The translations under genes were made by a program, and so were the position numbers. Shown here piece after piece: positions 19,251 to 27,634 of a stretch of DNA of 64,000 nt; position 1 is the first letter of the stretch, and each line of letters opens with the position of its first letter. The notes under the pieces are model-generated. The model worked only from the letters and a program-made list of their open reading frames with translations. It made no database searches and was not told the origin of the DNA. Source of the stretch: Streptomyces sp. Go-475 (GTDB lineage: Bacteria; Actinomycetota; Actinomycetes; Streptomycetales; Streptomycetaceae); NCBI RefSeq assembly GCF_003330845.1, contig NZ_CP026121.1:868001-932000 (forward strand), in the 5' to 3' direction.

Positions 19251-20621
19251 CTACGAGACGGCTGTCAGTTCGGACTGCGACTCGGGGCGCCGCGGCGACG
19301 CGGTCTCCGGCTCCCACTGCCGGGTGGTCCGCGTGTAGCCGTAGACGACCGAGGCCATCACCAGGATGAGGAGCGGTCCGAACAGCCACGGGTACGTGGC
19401 CATCTCCAGTGACGCGAAGCGGTAGCAGAGCAGGAGCGCCGCGAAGACCGTCGTGCCGTAGGCGACCAGTTGGATTCCGGACCGGTCCCAGCCGCGGTCG
19501 AGCATGCGCACGGCCGCCTCGATGGTGTACGCGAACACCACGCCGGCGACGAGGTCCACGCCGTAGTGGTAGCCGAATCCCAGCGTCGCGGTGAGCGTGG
19601 CGATCAGCCAGAACGTGCCGGCGACGCGCAGCGCCCGCGGGCCCTTGCGGGAGTGGATGAAGATGGCGGTGGCCCACGCCGTGTGCAGGCTGGGCATGCA
19701 GTTGCGGGGGGTGATCCCGTCGAACGGCATCGCGTGCGGGGTGGCGATCGGCGGGGGCGTGCCCGGCCACAGGTCGGCCAGCGCCCAGTGCCCGCCGTCG
19801 GCGCCGAAGGCGAAGATCGGCCCGACCACCGGGAAGATCATGTAGATGCCCGGCCCGAGGAGGCCGATCACGAGGAAGGTGCGCACGATGTGATGCCCCG
19901 GGAAGCGGCGCTCGACCGCCACGTTCCGCAGCTGGTACAGCGCGACGACGACCGCGGCCACCGCGAGCTGGGCGTAGACGTAGTCGAGGAGCGTCGCGCC
20001 GACCGGGCCGGTGGCCTCGACCATCCGGCCCACCAGCCAGGACGGGTTGCCCAGCGCGTGGTCGGCGTTGGCCAGGTACTGGTCGAGCACCGTCACCCGG
20101 GTCTCCGAGGTGATGAGCAGCCAGGTGTCGCCGGTCTTGCGGCCGGTCACCAGCAGCAGGCCCAGGCCGACGCCCTTCAGCAGCAGGAGGCGTTCCCGGC
20201 CGGTGCGGCGCGTGACGGCGAGGACCGCGACGCCCAGGATGACCCACAGCGCGCCGTTGCCGAAGGGGTGCCCGCCGTTCAGGCCGGCACCGACCGCCCA
20301 GCGCACCAGCAGGAACACCACGTCGATGGCGATGGCGGCACCGGCCGCGATGCAGCGCTGCCGCCAGTTGAGCACCACCATCATCAACGCCATGCTGGCG
20401 TACAGCAGGAAGCCCGACTTGGGCGCGGCGATCACTTCTCGCGCCTGCTGCACCATCGGCCCCGGCAGGCCGAGGTGGCGGGCCGTGATCTCCAGTGCGA
20501 CGAGGAATCCGAGCGTCACCAGCCCCGCGGCACTCCACAGCACCGCCCGGGGCGGGTTCCGGACGGCGAGCGTGAGTCTGCCCCTTGTGCGCGAAGATAT
20601 CCGCGATGATTTAGATATCAA
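19251..20621 (-). CDS. PAP2-superfamily membrane phosphatase / inositol-phosphoceramide synthase-like enzyme
   Basis: About 456 residues; the start is uncertain because TTG at 20621 has no clear ribosome site. At least ten membrane helices are visible. The PAP2_3-type active site is present: ITPRNCMPSLHTAWATAIF (phosphatase motif with His) and FGYHYGVDLVAGVVFAYTIE (second catalytic His and Asp). Such proteins dephosphorylate or transfer head groups of membrane lipid phosphates, with the active site outside the membrane. N-terminal helices beyond the usual six suggest the larger Aur1/Ipt-like architecture. The gene appears monocistronic, with an AT-rich promoter region upstream. Confidence 0.78.
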   Translation of the reverse strand: MISKSSRISSRTRGRLTLAVRNPPRAVLWSAAGLVTLGFLVALEITARHLGLPGPMVQQAREVIAAPKSGFLLYASMALMMVVLNWRQRCIAAGAAIAIDVVFLLVRWAVGAGLNGGHPFGNGALWVILGVAVLAVTRRTGRERLLLLKGVGLGLLLVTGRKTGDTWLLITSETRVTVLDQYLANADHALGNPSWLVGRMVEATGPVGATLLDYVYAQLAVAAVVVALYQLRNVAVERRFPGHHIVRTFLVIGLLGPGIYMIFPVVGPIFAFGADGGHWALADLWPGTPPPIATPHAMPFDGITPRNCMPSLHTAWATAIFIHSRKGPRALRVAGTFWLIATLTATLGFGYHYGVDLVAGVVFAYTIEAAVRMLDRGWDRSGIQLVAYGTTVFAALLLCYRFASLEMATYPWLFGPLLILVMASVVYGYTRTTRQWEPETASPRRPESQSELTAVS

Positions 20622-20713: not shown

Positions 20714-22129
20714 TCAGTTCACGGGCAGTGGCGGCAGTGCCGTCTCCTGCACCCACGCGCGCAGCAGTTCGTCCACCGGCTCGGGCGCGAAGCGGGCCAC
20801 GTGGGAGGTGAAGGCCGCGGTCGTCACCGTGCCGCCGCGGTGCAGCCGCCCCCAGTCGCGCAGCATGCGGAAGAAGGCGATGTCGCCCAGCGCGCAGCGC
20901 ACCGCGTGCAGCACCAGCCCGCCGCGTTCGTAGAGCCGGTCGTCGAACATGGACTTGCGCCCCGGGTCCGCCAGCCGCAGGTCCTGCGGCAGCGACGACA
21001 GCAACCGGTGCGCGGCAGCCGCGTGTTGCCGCGCCGTGCGCCCGCCCGAGCGCTCCGACCAGAGCCACTCCGCGTACTTCGCGAACCCCTCGTTCAGCCA
21101 GATGTGCTGCCAGTCCGCGATGGTCACGCTGTTGCCGAACCACTGGTGCGCCAGCTCGTGCGCCACGAGCCGCTCCGAGCCCCGTGCCCCGTCCACGTGG
21201 TTGGCGCCGAACAGCGACAGCCCCTGCGCCTCGACGGGCACGTCGAGTTCCTCCTCGGTCACCACGACCGCGTACTCGTCGAAGGGGTACGGCCCGAACA
21301 GCTCCTGGAACACGTCCATCATCTGCGGCTGGCGCGCGAAGTCGCGTGAGAAGTCGCCCAGCAGACGGGCCGGGATGTGCCCGTGCTGCGGGACCCCGCC
21401 CGGCCCCGGGTCGCCCAGCAGCACCGTCTGGTACTTGCCGATCGCCAGCCCGACGAGGTAACTGGACGTCGGCGCCGACTGCTCGTACACCCAGGTGGTC
21501 GTGCTCGCCTTCGTCGTCCGGGTCAGCAGCCGCCCGCCCGCCACCACCGCGTACGCCGACGGCGTGGTGATCGAGATCTGGTACGACGCCTTGTCGGCGG
21601 GCCGGTCGTTGCACGGGTACCACGACGGCGCCCCGATCGGCTGGCTGGCCACCAGCGCCCCGTCCTCCAGCTCCTCCCAGCCGAGCCCGCCCCAGGGGCT
21701 GCTCACCGGCTCGGGGTTGCCCGACCAGTGCACCTCGACCGTGAAGGCCGCCCCGGCGCGGACCGGCTTGGCGGGGCGGACGCGCAGCCGGCCGCCGCGG
21801 TGCGTGTAGTGCGGCTGCCGTCCGTCGACCCGCACCCGACCGATCCGGTAGTCGGCCAGGTTCAGCACGAACTCGGTGAGCGGTGCCCGGCCCGCTATGG
21901 CGTTGATGCGGGCCGTCCCGGACAGCCGGTTCGGGGCCGGGCGGTAGTCCAGCGCGAGCTCGTACCGGTGCACGCGGTACCGGGGGTCGCCGTGCTCCGG
22001 GAAGTACGGGTCCGCGCCCGCCGCCTGCTGGACTGCCACTGCCGTCTGTGCTCCCTGCGCTGTGCCGCTGCCACTGTCCGCCGGTCCGTCGTCCTCCGGC
22101 TCCGAGTGGCCGGCGCTCAGGGACGCCAT
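20714..22129 (-). CDS. M1 family zinc metallopeptidase
   Basis: 471 residues from ATG at 22129, overlapping the synthetase gene by 13 bases. The zinc site is complete: HELAH (His324, Glu325, His328) with Glu347 in NEGFAKYAEW. The usual GXMEN exopeptidase motif is replaced by EAQGLSLFG (about 300-308), so recognition of the free amino terminus may differ from standard aminopeptidases. There is no clear signal peptide, although the first ~40 residues are hydrophilic and disordered-looking. Translational coupling to a Pls/PosA-type synthetase suggests it trims, releases or gives immunity to the peptide product. At 471 residues it lacks the long C-terminal helical domain of PepN. Confidence 0.88.
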   Translation of the reverse strand: MASLSAGHSEPEDDGPADSGSGTAQGAQTAVAVQQAAGADPYFPEHGDPRYRVHRYELALDYRPAPNRLSGTARINAIAGRAPLTEFVLNLADYRIGRVRVDGRQPHYTHRGGRLRVRPAKPVRAGAAFTVEVHWSGNPEPVSSPWGGLGWEELEDGALVASQPIGAPSWYPCNDRPADKASYQISITTPSAYAVVAGGRLLTRTTKASTTTWVYEQSAPTSSYLVGLAIGKYQTVLLGDPGPGGVPQHGHIPARLLGDFSRDFARQPQMMDVFQELFGPYPFDEYAVVVTEEELDVPVEAQGLSLFGANHVDGARGSERLVAHELAHQWFGNSVTIADWQHIWLNEGFAKYAEWLWSERSGGRTARQHAAAAHRLLSSLPQDLRLADPGRKSMFDDRLYERGGLVLHAVRCALGDIAFFRMLRDWGRLHRGGTVTTAAFTSHVARFAPEPVDELLRAWVQETALPPLPVN

Positions 22130-25100
22130 GCCTCGATCGGGTTGCCGAGCCAGCGGGTGTCGTCGGGGACGGACTCCGCGGCCATGACGAGCGACGCGGG
22201 ACCCAGGGTCGTACGGGCCCCGATCGTGCTGCCGGGCAGGACGATCCCGCCAGGACCCAGCGTCGCGCCCTCACGGAGGACCACAGTATCCGTCCGCAAG
22301 ATCCGGTCGTGGAAGAGGTGCGTCTGGAGCACGCAGCCGCGGTTCACGGTCGCCGCGTCCCCGAGCGTCACCAGATCCGTCTCGGGCAGCCAGTAGCTCT
22401 CCACCCACACGCCCCTGCCGATCCGCGCCCCGAGCCCGCGCAGCCACGCCGTCATCACCGGCGTGCCCGGCACCGCACCGGCCAGCCACGGCACGGCGAG
22501 CACCTCGACGAAGGTGTCCGCCAGCTCGTTGCGCCACACGAAGGGAGACCACAGCGGGTGCTCGCCGCTGCGGTGCCGCCCCACGAGCGCCCACTTGGCG
22601 ACGATCGACACGAGGGCCGCGGCCGCTCCCGCCGCGAGCAGCACGAGCCCGGACAGCAGCGGCGCCCAGGCCCCCAGCGCGCACAGCGCCGCCACGGTCA
22701 GCACCGCCAGCCCCGCCGAGCAGAACACCGGCACGATCCGGCACAGTTCCACGAGGGCGCGTGCCCACAGCAGCCGGGCCGGCGGTTCGTAGGTGCGGCT
22801 CCGGTCGCCGTCGGCCGCGGCGCGCGGCAGCTTCACCGGCGGCAGCCCCAGGTAGGAGCTGCCCTTCTTGGCCTTCTTCGGCGTCGCGGACAGCACCCCG
22901 ACCAGTCCGCCGTCCGGCACGGACCGGCCCGGCGCGGTCATCCCCGAGTTCCCGAGGAAGGCCCGCCGCCCGATCTCGGCCCGCCCGATCCGCATCCAGC
23001 CACCGCCGAGTTCGTAGGGCGCGGTGAGCGTGTCGTCGGCGAGGAACGCGCCCTCGCCGACCGTGGTCAGGCTGGGCAGGGCGAGCACGGTGGACACCTC
23101 GGCGCCCCGCCCGATCCGCATCCCGAGCAGCCTGAGCCACACCGGCGTGGCCAGCCCGGCGTACAGCGGGAACAGCGTCTCCCGCGAGCGGTCCATCAGC
23201 TGGGTGACCGTCCAGGCCTGCCAGGCGATCCGGCTGTGCGTGGGGTGCGTGCCCTCGCGCAGTCCCAGGCTCAGCAGCCGTACGGCGGTCAGGATCAGCA
23301 GGGCGTAGGCCAGCCCGTAGGCGAGCGTCGCCGGCACGAGGGCGAGCGCGACGCCGCGCACGGTCACGTCCGGCGCGATGAACGCGTGGGCCACGAGGAG
23401 CGCCGCGCCGCCCGCGAGCACCGGCAGGGCGCTCAGCGCGAAGCCCGTCACGCCGTACATCGCGCGCCAGGACGTGCCCCGCCCGGGCCGTTCCTTCGGC
23501 CGGTCGCGCTTGGCCCGGCCGAGCTTGACCGCGGGCGCGCCCGCCCACCGCTGCCCGGTGGGGATCTGGCCGGTGACCGCCGAACCGGGCGCCACCTCGG
23601 CCCGCTTGCCGACCCGGGCGCCGGGGAAGAGCGTGCTGCGGGTGCCGACGACGGCGTGCGCGCCGACCTTGACCGGGCCGATCTCCAGCCGGTCGCCGTC
23701 CAGCCAGTACCCGGACAGGTCCACCTCGGACTCGACGGCCGCGCCCCGGCCCAGTTTGAGCATGCCGGTGACCGGGGGCAGCGAGTGCAGGTCCACGTCC
23801 GGGGCGACCTTGGCGCCCAGCGCCCGCGCGTACCGCTCCAGCCAGGACCCGGTCAGCGAGGTCGCCCCGCTGAACTCCGCGAGCCGTTCGGCGGCCCACA
23901 GCCGCAGGTGCACGCTGCCGCCGCGCGGGTACCGTCCCGGCCGCACGTCGCGGAGCAGCAGCCGCGCCCCGCCCGCCGCGAGGGCGAGCCGCCCCGGCGG
24001 GCTGAACAGCAGCACGGCCCCGGCCGCGATCGACCACCAAGGGGCGGTCGGCAGCCAGGAGTACGCGGGCAGCAGGTTCCCGAGGGCGGCGAGCGCCACG
24101 GTCCAGCGCAGTCCGAGCAGGGTGAACAGCGGGATCAGGGCGAGGAGCTGGATCGCCTGGGCGCGGACCGGAACCGGGGCGACGGCCCGTGCGGCCCCGT
24201 CGTCCTGTGCCGACTCCTCCAGCCGCCGGGCCAGTTTGCGCAGCACGGGCTGCTGGTAGATGTCCAGGACGGCGGCGCTCGGGTAGCGGGTGCGCAGCCG
24301 GGTGGTGAGCTGGGCGGCGGCGAGGCTGCCGCCGCCGATCGCGAAGAAGTCGTCCCGCGCGCTGGTCACGGGGATGCCGAGCACTTCGCTCCACTGCTCG
24401 GCGAGCCAGGCCTCGGTGCCGTACAGCTCCTCGGCCGGGCCGGCGCCCTCCAGTCCCTCCAGGGGCCAGGGCAGGGCGGCGCGGTCCACCTTGCCGCTGG
24501 TCCGGGTCGGCAGTTCGCCGACCGGCGCGAGCAACGGCACGAGGGCGGCGGGCAGTTCGGCCCGCAGCTTCTCGACGGCCGCCGTGTGGTCCCAGCCGTC
24601 CTGGGTGACGACGTATCCGACGAGTAGTTGGTTGCCGCTGCGGGCGGTCCGTACGGCGGCCGCGGCTCCGGCGACTCCGGGCAGCGCCTGCAGGGCCGCG
24701 TCCACCTCGCCGAGTTCGATGCGCCGCCCGCCGAGCTTGATCTGCTCGTCGGCCCGGCCGAGGAAGACCAGTCCCTCGGGCTCCGCCTTGACGAGGTCGC
24801 CGCTGCGGTACGCCCGCTTCCAGCCTAGGGACTCCAGGGGCGCGTACTTCTCCGCGTCCTTCTCGGCGTCGAGGTACCGGGCGAGCCCGACTCCGCCGAT
24901 CACCAACTGGCCGCTGCCGCCCATCGGTACGGGCTCTCCGGCCTCGTCGACGACGGCCAGTTCCCAGCCGTCCAGGGGCAGGCCGATCCGGATCGGCTCC
25001 TCGCCGGTCAGCAGCGAGGCGCAGGCCACGACGGTCGCCTCGGTCGGCCCGTAGGTGTTCCAGACCTCGCGGCCCTCGGTCACCAGCCGCTGGGCCAGCT

Positions 25101-25971
25101 CGGGCGGGCAGGCCTCGCCGCCGAAGATCAGCAGCCGTACGTCGTTGAGGGTCTCGGGCTCCCACAGCGCGGCCAGGGTCGGCACGGTGGACACGACCGT
25201 GATCTCCTGCTCGACCAGCCAGGGCCCGAGGTCGGCGCCGCTCCTGACCTGCGCGCGCGGCACGGGCACCAGGCAGGCCCCGTACCGCCAGGCCAGCCAC
25301 ATCTCCTCGCAGGAGGCGTCGAACGCCACGGACAGCCCGGCCATGACCCGGTCGCCGGGCCCGATCGGCTCCTCGGTGAGGAACAGGGCGGCCTCGGCGT
25401 CCACGAACGCGGCGGCGCTGCGGTGCGAGACGGCGACGCCCTTGGGCCTGCCGGTGGAGCCGGACGTGAAGATGATCCACGCGTCGTGCTCGACGCCGGG
25501 GCGCGCGGCGGCGGCGTCGGAGGTGCCGTGGGCGACGATCTCGTGCCCGGCCCCGATGACGGCCCGTACGTCCGCTTCCCCGAACACCAACTCGGCGCGT
25601 TCGTCCGGGTCCTCGGCGTCGACGGGGACGTACGCGGCTCCAGCCGCGAGGACGGCGAGGATCGCGATGTACAGCTCGTTGGTGCCGGACGGGACGCGTA
25701 CGCCCACCCGGTCCCCGAGCCCGACCCCGGCCGCGCCGAGTCGGCGCCGCAGCCGCTCCACCTCGGCGGCGAGCTGACGGTAGGTGAGGCCGGCGGTGCC
25801 GTCGTCCAGGGCGGGCTCGTCCGGGTGGGCGCGTGCGGACGCCTCGAAGACGTCGACGAGCGTGCGCGGGGAGGCCGCCGGGCCCCCGGAGAAGCGTGCC
25901 GTGTCGCCGAACTTGGCGCGGATCTCTTCGTCGAGCAGGCCGAGAGCACTGCTCTCGTCTATGGCTGCCAT
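22117..25971 (-). CDS. Pls/PosA-type non-ribosomal peptide synthetase (A-T plus membrane C-terminal domain)
   Basis: 1,284 residues from ATG at 25971, with GAGGA upstream. The adenylation domain (about 35-505) has FTSGSTGRPKG (168-178), YRSGDL (388-393) and Lys494 in TSGKVDR. The carrier domain follows, with phosphopantetheine Ser549 in FFAIGGGSLAAAQL. There is no condensation or thioesterase domain. Instead residues ~605-1284 hold membrane helices with three left-handed beta-helix (hexapeptide) blocks, as in the poly-epsilon-lysine synthetase Pls, where the tandem C-terminal domains join monomers. By alignment to GrsA the pocket reads Asp218, Ala219, Glu222, Ser261, Ile282, Gly284, Thr306, Val314, Val315, Lys494. 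The acidic Glu222 would suit a basic side chain, but the monomer is not known. Confidence 0.88.
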   Translation of the reverse strand: MAAIDESSALGLLDEEIRAKFGDTARFSGGPAASPRTLVDVFEASARAHPDEPALDDGTAGLTYRQLAAEVERLRRRLGAAGVGLGDRVGVRVPSGTNELYIAILAVLAAGAAYVPVDAEDPDERAELVFGEADVRAVIGAGHEIVAHGTSDAAAARPGVEHDAWIIFTSGSTGRPKGVAVSHRSAAAFVDAEAALFLTEEPIGPGDRVMAGLSVAFDASCEEMWLAWRYGACLVPVPRAQVRSGADLGPWLVEQEITVVSTVPTLAALWEPETLNDVRLLIFGGEACPPELAQRLVTEGREVWNTYGPTEATVVACASLLTGEEPIRIGLPLDGWELAVVDEAGEPVPMGGSGQLVIGGVGLARYLDAEKDAEKYAPLESLGWKRAYRSGDLVKAEPEGLVFLGRADEQIKLGGRRIELGEVDAALQALPGVAGAAAAVRTARSGNQLLVGYVVTQDGWDHTAAVEKLRAELPAALVPLLAPVGELPTRTSGKVDRAALPWPLEGLEGAGPAEELYGTEAWLAEQWSEVLGIPVTSARDDFFAIGGGSLAAAQLTTRLRTRYPSAAVLDIYQQPVLRKLARRLEESAQDDGAARAVAPVPVRAQAIQLLALIPLFTLLGLRWTVALAALGNLLPAYSWLPTAPWWSIAAGAVLLFSPPGRLALAAGGARLLLRDVRPGRYPRGGSVHLRLWAAERLAEFSGATSLTGSWLERYARALGAKVAPDVDLHSLPPVTGMLKLGRGAAVESEVDLSGYWLDGDRLEIGPVKVGAHAVVGTRSTLFPGARVGKRAEVAPGSAVTGQIPTGQRWAGAPAVKLGRAKRDRPKERPGRGTSWRAMYGVTGFALSALPVLAGGAALLVAHAFIAPDVTVRGVALALVPATLAYGLAYALLILTAVRLLSLGLREGTHPTHSRIAWQAWTVTQLMDRSRETLFPLYAGLATPVWLRLLGMRIGRGAEVSTVLALPSLTTVGEGAFLADDTLTAPYELGGGWMRIGRAEIGRRAFLGNSGMTAPGRSVPDGGLVGVLSATPKKAKKGSSYLGLPPVKLPRAAADGDRSRTYEPPARLLWARALVELCRIVPVFCSAGLAVLTVAALCALGAWAPLLSGLVLLAAGAAAALVSIVAKWALVGRHRSGEHPLWSPFVWRNELADTFVEVLAVPWLAGAVPGTPVMTAWLRGLGARIGRGVWVESYWLPETDLVTLGDAATVNRGCVLQTHLFHDRILRTDTVVLREGATLGPGGIVLPGSTIGARTTLGPASLVMAAESVPDDTRWLGNPIEAWRP

Positions 25972-26207
25972 CCGGTCCTCGCGTCTCGATCCCGGATGCC
26001 TCCGGGGCGCTGGCGGGTCCGCAGGTGTGCCTGGGGTTGTCCGGCTCCAGCTCCTCAACAAGCCGGAAATCTTAGTACGCGGGGGATTTGGGCGCTTCGG
26101 TACGCCGCTCCGGATGAGCCGTCCGGCCGTGGCGCGGGGCCGACAGACCGGCGTTGACCTGGTGGTCTTCCGGAGAGCGAGACTTCCCCCACACCGTGCC
26201 GTCGCGT

Positions 26208-27074
26208 TCAGCCGTGCTCGGGTTCGACGGGGAGCCACAGTTCGGCGTCGGCCTCGGCCGTGTCCGGCGACAGGCGGGTGCGCAGGATCTCGGGGCCGGT
26301 GCGGCTGCGGTACGGGTTCGACGGGAACCACTCGGTGAAGACGTCCCGCCACAGCTCCTGGATGGCGTGCGGCGCCGGCCCGGAGGTCGTGAACACCGCC
26401 CAGGTACCGGCCGGGACGGCCAGCGCGGTCGTGCCCTCGGGAGGGGGCTCGGAGGTGATCACGCCGTGGTAGTAGTCGAGTTCGGTGCCCTCGGCGCGGC
26501 TGGGGTCCAGGTCGTCGCAGACCGCGACGATGCCGTGGGGCTCCTGGTCCGACAGCTTCTCCAGGCGCTCCCGGGTCCGCGGGTCGATCCCCCGGACGAA
26601 GTCGACGATCGCCTGGTTCGGGCCCGAGTGCACCAGTGGCACCCGGGTCTTGGGTCCGACGACGGTGAAGTCCGCCTTGTCCACGACGCGGTACCGCATG
26701 TCGCCGCTCCCTTCGATGGTGAGGCGGAAGGCCATCCGGGACTGGGAGCTGAGCGCGGCGCCGGTCCGGCGGGCCTCGCCCGGTCCGATGCCGTGCATGG
26801 CGCGGAACGCCCGCGCGAACGCCTCGCCGGAGCCGTAGCCGTAGCGCACCGCGATCTCCAGCAGCGTCTCGCGCCCGGCGAGCACCTCGGCGCCCGCCAG
26901 GGTGAGCCGGCGGCGCCGGACGTACTCCGACAGCGGCATGCCCGCGAGCGCGGAGAACATCCGCCGCAGGTGGTACTCGGAGGTGGCCGCGATGCGTGCC
27001 AGCTCGGCGACGTCGAGGTCCTGGTCGAGATGGTGCTCGATGTGCTCCATGGCCTGGTTCAGCCGCTCCAGCAC
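26208..27074 (-). CDS. AraC-family regulator with GyrI-like effector-binding domain
   Basis: 288 residues from GTG at 27074, with AAGGAAGGAG upstream. An N-terminal AraC double helix-turn-helix (about 5-105: DLDVAELARIAATSEYHLRR, LLEIAVRYGYGSGEAFARAF) is followed by a GyrI/BmrR-like ligand-binding domain (about 125-285: FTVVGPKTRVPLVHSG, YYHGVITSEPPPEGTTAL, WFPSNPYRSRTGPEIL). This Rob/SoxS-like layout is typical of regulators that answer to amphipathic drugs. It is divergent from the VOC gene at 27251, a possible target. Confidence 0.88.
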   Translation of the reverse strand: MLERLNQAMEHIEHHLDQDLDVAELARIAATSEYHLRRMFSALAGMPLSEYVRRRRLTLAGAEVLAGRETLLEIAVRYGYGSGEAFARAFRAMHGIGPGEARRTGAALSSQSRMAFRLTIEGSGDMRYRVVDKADFTVVGPKTRVPLVHSGPNQAIVDFVRGIDPRTRERLEKLSDQEPHGIVAVCDDLDPSRAEGTELDYYHGVITSEPPPEGTTALAVPAGTWAVFTTSGPAPHAIQELWRDVFTEWFPSNPYRSRTGPEILRTRLSPDTAEADAELWLPVEPEHG

Positions 27075-27250
27075 ACCCGGTCTCCTTCCTTCGGCTGTCA
27101 CCACGCTATGCGGCACCCGCCATGCCGGACCCGACATCCTGTGCCCGATCGGGTCGGGTGCGCGGATCGGCCCGGGGCGGGGCCCGGCCGGAACGGCGGC
27201 CCGGCGCAACCCGGTGGCGGCCGGCGTGGAAGTCGGGAAGGCTGGTGCGC

Positions 27251-27634
27251 ATGGTTTCGGTGGTGCAGAACGTTGCGATTGACTGTGCGGATGCCTATGA
27301 ACTGGCCCGGTTCTGGAGCAGGGTGACCGGCCGACCACTGGATCCGGAGGCCGAACCGGGTGACCGGGAGACTCAGGTGCTGATGGCCGAGGGCCCCGCG
27401 CTCTACTTCAACCAGGTTCCCGAGCCCAAGACCGTCAAGAACCGGATCCATCTGTGCCTGCGCCCCGAGACCTCGCGTGAGCAGGAGGTGGAACGGCTGC
27501 TGGGGATCGGCGCCACCCTCGTCGCCGATCGCCGGAATCCCGACGGCTCCGGCTGGGCGGTCCTCGCCGACCCCGAGGGCAACGAATTCTGCGTCCTCCG
27601 CAGCGAGTCCGACCGAGCCGCAGCGCGTCCCTGA
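27251..27634 (+). CDS. VOC (glyoxalase/bleomycin resistance-type) superfamily protein
   Basis: 127 residues from ATG at 27251, GGAAGG nine bases upstream. A single long VOC domain reads VQNVAIDCADAYELARFWSR, LYFNQVPEPKTVKNRIHLCL and WAVLADPEGNEFCVLRS. This Glyoxalase_6-type subgroup is common in Streptomyces; its substrates are unknown. A Glu in PEGNEFC and a His in IHLCL may bind metal. The AraC-GyrI gene lies divergently upstream. Confidence 0.8.
   Translation: MVSVVQNVAIDCADAYELARFWSRVTGRPLDPEAEPGDRETQVLMAEGPALYFNQVPEPKTVKNRIHLCLRPETSREQEVERLLGIGATLVADRRNPDGSGWAVLADPEGNEFCVLRSESDRAAARP

Follow-up and report, generated by a model that had tools for sequence, protein, structure and literature searches.

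A pls–peptidase gene pair of Streptomyces sp. Go-475 whose PldII homologue lacks a visible export signal

Introduction

The pls and pldII genes of Streptomyces albulus ZPM are reported to form an operon in which they overlap by 4 bp (PMC4361855), and translation of pldII is said to be coupled to that of pls, with PldII located outside the membrane (PMC9223678; PMC9205021). Inactivation of Pld and PldII in S. albulus, as reported, left production and chain length unchanged (PMC8506220); repression of pldII via CRISPRi is stated to have altered chain length (PMC9223678). For Corynebacterium variabile, a pls operon with “a peptidase gene” was described, the synthetase of which yielded ε-polylysine in S. 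coelicolor (PMC8117764); S. coelicolor strain M145 is reported to be devoid of pls (PMC8117764). AntiSMASH assigned a NAPAA cluster of S. justiciae WPN32 to ε-polylysine at 100% (PMC10749237), and a pangenome study gives 730 ε-polylysine clusters above its threshold of 80% (PMC11734326). The terminal domain typical of Pls/PosA enzymes was described as six helices in three pairs, with three soluble segments packed together (PMC10522769).

The locus from Streptomyces sp. Go-475 analyzed here shares with S. albulus pls-pldII the gene order, the presence of a gene overlap, the domain architecture, the pocket residues, and the M1 family of the peptidase; it differs in belonging to another clade and in the length of the overlap (13 bp versus 4 bp). 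With C. variabile pls it has in common the type of synthetase and the operonic arrangement with a peptidase gene (PMC8117764). The δ-poly-L-ornithine synthetase PosA of Acinetobacter baumannii also has the A-T-terminal-domain architecture and the equivalents of Asp217 and Glu221, but its pocket reads DMEHNGTVSK and its gene is described as a single-gene operon without neighbors (PMC10522769). The two-domain M1 metallopeptidase of Deinococcus radiodurans (6A8Z and related) is also among the closest known systems. A first-pass annotation had proposed a possible cryptic poly-amino-acid locus; this notion is not supported, as the locus is the counterpart of the characterized S. albulus operon. In our reading, it is a pls-pldII operon that would both make and degrade ε-poly-L-lysine, with a peptidase most likely residing in the cytosol, which we consider reasonably probable. 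What the analysis adds is the apparently unexported type of peptidase, of which no description was found in the open-access literature searched; the pairing of pls with a peptidase gene is already known and common.

Results

The window (the whole stretch of DNA analyzed, 64,000 nucleotides of contig NZ_CP026121.1) contains the gene for an A-T synthetase and, overlapping it, that for an M1 peptidase, both as claimed in the first-pass annotation (Table 1).

Table 1. Position of the gene pair and of adjacent features within the window
Feature	Coordinates	Strand	Basis or remark
pls, A-T-(membrane/terminal domain) ε-poly-L-lysine synthetase homologue, 1284 aa	22117-25971	-	TIGR02353, PF00501, PF00550, 7WEW match
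M1 metallopeptidase (471 aa), homologue of PldII with no visible signal peptide	20714-22129	-	PF01433, PF17900
13-bp overlap of pls and M1 peptidase gene	22117-22129	-	sequence
Leader upstream of pls	25972-26085	-	many columns and long stretches conserved among 78 aligned sequences (the window and close Streptomyces relatives)
DUF5933 + PAP2_3 protein	19251-20621	-	92 bases downstream of peptidase
AraC-type regulator with GyrI-like ligand domain	26208-27338	-	upstream of pls; in 1/80 loci

The peptidase contains HELAH at position 324 (H324, E325, and H328), the third ligand E347, as well as Y400 and E300, all of which are invariant across 75 aligned relatives, which places it in the M1 family; among the matches listed, its structural neighbors are M1 enzymes as well. 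A PldII-like protein of S. noursei (P0124) is 46% identical to it and comprises 467 aa, which is consistent with the printed 1404-bp pldII gene. Because P0124 and P0237 combine the right length with all six residues printed for PldII (D44, T45, D173, K174, T194, and E281), S. albulus PldII can be tied to this M1 family. These six residues, as presented, stem from modeling, with no M1 zinc ligand among them (PMC9223678). The window enzyme has R52, V53, D179, K180, R200, and D284 instead, that is, two of the six are kept. The lack of a normal GXMEN motif had been taken as a hint to a specialized enzyme. A complete GXMEN is indeed absent, VPVEAQ with the retained Glu (E300) being found instead, but this does not single the enzyme out: PldII itself has APVENQ at this site, and ALETQ or ELETQ is present in L089-L091, the three of six further M1 matches in the genome for which the motif was resolved. 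Three of the six further matches are 31-36% identical over most of the length.

Export was assessed from hydropathy (the highest 15-residue value before the conserved domain) rather than with a trained predictor. By this measure, the M1 peptidase of the window has neither a hydrophobic segment nor a signal-like start, and as the first in-frame start is the ATG at 22129, no longer form of the protein is hidden; it is, for lack of such a start, referred to as PldII homologue and not as PldII. The partner peptidases of the S. albulus type, PldII included, have PVENQ and at their start a signal, for example, CSRRALIRGAALLPFAATVADG, which we take to be twin-arginine-like, whereas the window type has PVEAQ and no signal. 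The apparent absence of an export signal is the clearest difference from PldII, and one on which the first-pass annotation was silent.

This trait is shared by close relatives. In none of 80 close Streptomyces loci (the best 80 of 352 places encoding a peptidase relative) did hydropathy reveal a signal-like or twin-arginine-like start; among those scored, the highest 15-residue value was at most 1.05, and none exceeded 1.6. Signal-bearing rows (n = 19, of which 18 are different) ranged between 1.36 and 2.47, and the three closest M1 paralogues of the same genome, serving as within-genome control, scored 2.1-2.5. Class-wide, 48 of 49 pls-linked loci were devoid of a signal-like start (13 of the 49 were too short to score and were counted as lacking it); the single exception is a Streptomyces of the S. 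albulus clade. PVEAQ is present in all 120 proteins listed nearest to the window peptidase, and a signal-like start in none of them. A second set consisted of 113 proteins first listed in a search with the S. albulus-type enzyme: 63 of them have PVENQ and a signal-like start, three (P0161, P0174, and P0191, the latter with a TRRAFLGG stretch) have PVENQ but no scored signal, and the remainder has mostly PVEAQ or a similar motif without signal. One protein, P0231, combines PVEAQ with a signal-like score, yet its start is cut inside the domain. Neither an unexported PldII nor a split among the peptidases was mentioned in the open-access literature searched (subscription papers were outside its scope), and no experimental work on the clade of the window turned up.

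On a quick Pls tree of 103 rows, made without bootstrap and without L150 and L232 (broken or partial pls), the signal trait changes once, and the unexported group of 79 rows (78 without signal and one without M1) is held together at 100. A single change was also observed on an M1 tree of 55 rows (N-terminus excluded; again quick and without bootstrap). In the Pls tree, L140, scored as signal, is adjacent to the unexported group, and the program issued a long-branch warning for it in the M1 tree; warnings during construction of the Pls tree also concerned L152, L195, and L222.

With no signal peptide visible, the site of action of the M1 peptidase is most likely cytosolic, on the side of polymer synthesis, a placement that we regard as probable. 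An ordinary pls-pldII operon, the peptidase of which reaches the surface by a route invisible in the sequence and there shields the cell against the polymer it secretes, as has been suggested for S. albulus, would agree with gene order, coupling, and enzyme family, which are as in S. albulus, and with the retained catalytic residues. This alternative is unlikely in view of the 80 close loci without any hydrophobic or twin-arginine-like start, of the single trait change on both the Pls and the M1 tree, and of M1 residues 1-36, which are modeled as disordered (pLDDT <50).

The synthetase comprises an AMP-binding domain (residues 42-365) and a PP-binding domain (522-584; both Pfam) with Ser549 as the carrier serine, followed by the Pls/PosA terminal domain TIGR02353 (607-1279; 850.4 bits versus a cut-off of 423.1); neither a condensation nor a thioesterase domain was matched in Pfam. 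This composition (A, T, and TIGR02353 terminal domain without C or TE) is that of the Pls/PosA family. Hydropathy indicated hydrophobic stretches near 600-631, 840-905, and 1072-1131, and a hexapeptide-repeat match lies at 767-801. The protein matches the solved ε-polylysine synthetase A domain 7WEW with 656.8 bits (66% identity within the A domain) and is ∼56% identical over its whole length to the S. albulus-type proteins, from which it is separated as another clade.

The ten pocket residues (D218, A219, E222, S261, I282, G284, T306, V314, V315, and K494) had been correctly read as DAESIGTVVK in the first-pass annotation, with the addition that they match no known code. The latter is mistaken, as the code is that of 7WEW, identical at 10/10 positions, and the notion of an unidentified monomer was discarded for this reason. 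The same ten letters are present in 124 of 130 aligned A domains (window and 7WEW counted) and in every row of the class-wide set (n = 49, the window and 48 loci); of the deviating pockets, three are gapped at the last Lys, two show Val as the fifth residue, and one, L152, reads DFEYLGTVTK. According to Patel and Gulick, lysine-activating members of the family have Ala at the position of PosA Met218, and Glu221 is conserved (PMC10522769). Identity of the pocket to that of 7WEW, together with Ala at the Met218 position and the retained Glu221, makes lysine the expected monomer, and the locus is very probably one for ε-polylysine as far as substrate and product can be predicted from sequence. 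The earlier proposal of a Pls-type homopolymer synthetase for a basic monomer, with A-T but no C or TE domain, agrees with both TIGR02353 and the 7WEW pocket. That the synthetase makes another basic monomer into a polymer, or a short oligomer, which the peptidase then cuts, is improbable: at 66% A-domain identity to 7WEW there is scope for it, and PosA M218A with its raised activity on Lys is reported as a case in which one residue can shift specificity in this family (PMC10522769), but the pocket agrees with that of 7WEW at all ten residues, and Ala occupies the Met218 position as in the lysine-activating members.

The deviating L152 (Rhodococcus sp. 008 plasmid pR8L1) encodes a distant Pls/PosA synthetase (33%); downstream of its gene lie those for a BPL-N domain protein and an acetyltransferase-like protein in place of an M1 gene.

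The pairing of pls and M1 gene is beyond chance, as pls lies upstream on the same strand in 80/80 of the peptidase-baited Streptomyces loci (the best 80 of 352). This pls is of full length in 78 of them and in pieces in L034 and L061, and the same 13-bp overlap forms the start of the peptidase alignment in 67/80. A search baited with the A domain of 7WEW gave matches in 168/392 Streptomyces genomes (E 1e-100 or better); within 40 hand-picked places among the Streptomyces matches listed, the M1 gene adjoins pls in 38, the exceptions being L118 and L119. A class-wide search with the peptidase gave matches in 93/394 genomes (E 1e-90 or better), and an upstream pls was present in 49 of the 52 matches fetched at length; L189, L196, and L209 have the M1 match without pls, two of these three with a signal-like start. 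Besides L118 and L119, L083, L084, and the distant L152 showed no M1 match near pls. L154 is uninformative in this regard because its sequence extends less than 1 kb past pls; in L191, a gap of 304 bases separates pls and M1 gene, and L151 is a duplicate of L108. The first-pass suggestion of a dedicated peptidase agrees with this pairing. That the M1 protein is a housekeeping aminopeptidase and a chance neighbor of pls is very improbable, for although M1 enzymes are common and six further matches exist elsewhere in the genome, the pairing (80/80, 38/40, and 49/52) stands against 1-3/80 for five other neighbors, and the type of peptidase tracks the Pls tree.

These five neighbors are the PAP2, AraC/GyrI, Rieske, and glyoxalase-like genes, each kept in 1/80 loci, and an ABC transporter, kept in 3/80 (loci at contig edges may hide some). 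A larger cluster was rejected on these grounds, and the unit looks like two genes only. The DUF5933 + PAP2_3 gene downstream, found in 1/80 loci and lying at a distance of 962 bases in the close relative L001, is therefore unlikely to belong to the operon. By local alignment, the pls leader was detected in L001, L124, and L131, and was found neither in L050 and L082 nor in any of eight S. albulus-type loci tested, and the idea of a leader shared with the latter was dropped. It is perhaps a clade-specific promoter or operator.

Discussion

In the proposed mechanism, the A domain would activate L-lysine with ATP and load it onto Ser549 of the T domain, and the membrane-anchored terminal domain would couple the α-carboxyl of the loaded lysine to the ε-amine of the acceptor, either a free lysine or the chain being extended. 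The A and T domains and the soluble segments presumably face the cytosol because ATP, lysine, and the carrier arm are needed there. Lacking a signal peptide, the coupled M1 enzyme would share the face of the membrane with the growing chain, in contrast to PldII. As a putative zinc peptidase of the PldII type, it may hydrolyze the polymer or short products thereof and would clear or trim polymer that has not yet left the cell, hydrolysis of retained polymer being its most likely task. For the clade in general, we infer that the polymer is made and secreted, and that M1 cuts it. Weighing against the reading of the locus as a pls-pldII operon with a cytosolic peptidase are the whole-length identity of ∼56%, the position in another clade, the signal test by hydropathy only, the null result of Pld/PldII inactivation, and the pls loci without M1 gene.

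If the peptidase stays inside, the usual account of PldII as a safeguard at the cell surface would not apply to it in its present form. The unexported type is the majority among the loci sampled, and given that it is widespread, synthesis and cleavage of the polymer may both take place on the cytosolic side in many actinomycetes. It is conceivable, albeit doubtful, that most sampled pls-bearing lineages of actinomycetes run an intracellular polylysine cycle, with synthesis and hydrolysis by two coupled enzymes in the cytosol, and that surface PldII together with antibiotic secretion is peculiar to the S. albulus clade. Such a cycle could serve to store lysine or nitrogen, to store a polycation, or to keep free polymer strictly limited. 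The split between peptidases could also help explain non-producing genomes with an “ε-polylysine” cluster, and removal of the coupled peptidase would be a simple test for silent clusters in laboratory Streptomyces. One locus of the window's type, at 90%, stems from another S. justiciae strain (L020) and may correspond to the NAPAA cluster of strain WPN32.

Two synthetase matches are present in 7/392 Streptomyces genomes; in each of the five for which both copies were fetched, there is one copy per clade, and in two of these five (G243 and G362), no M1 match adjoins the copy on the S. albulus side. The M1 relatives L189 and L209 (class genomes G573 and G481), of ∼41% identity, have signal-like starts and no pls nearby, and the start of L209 carries a lipoprotein-like LALAGC.
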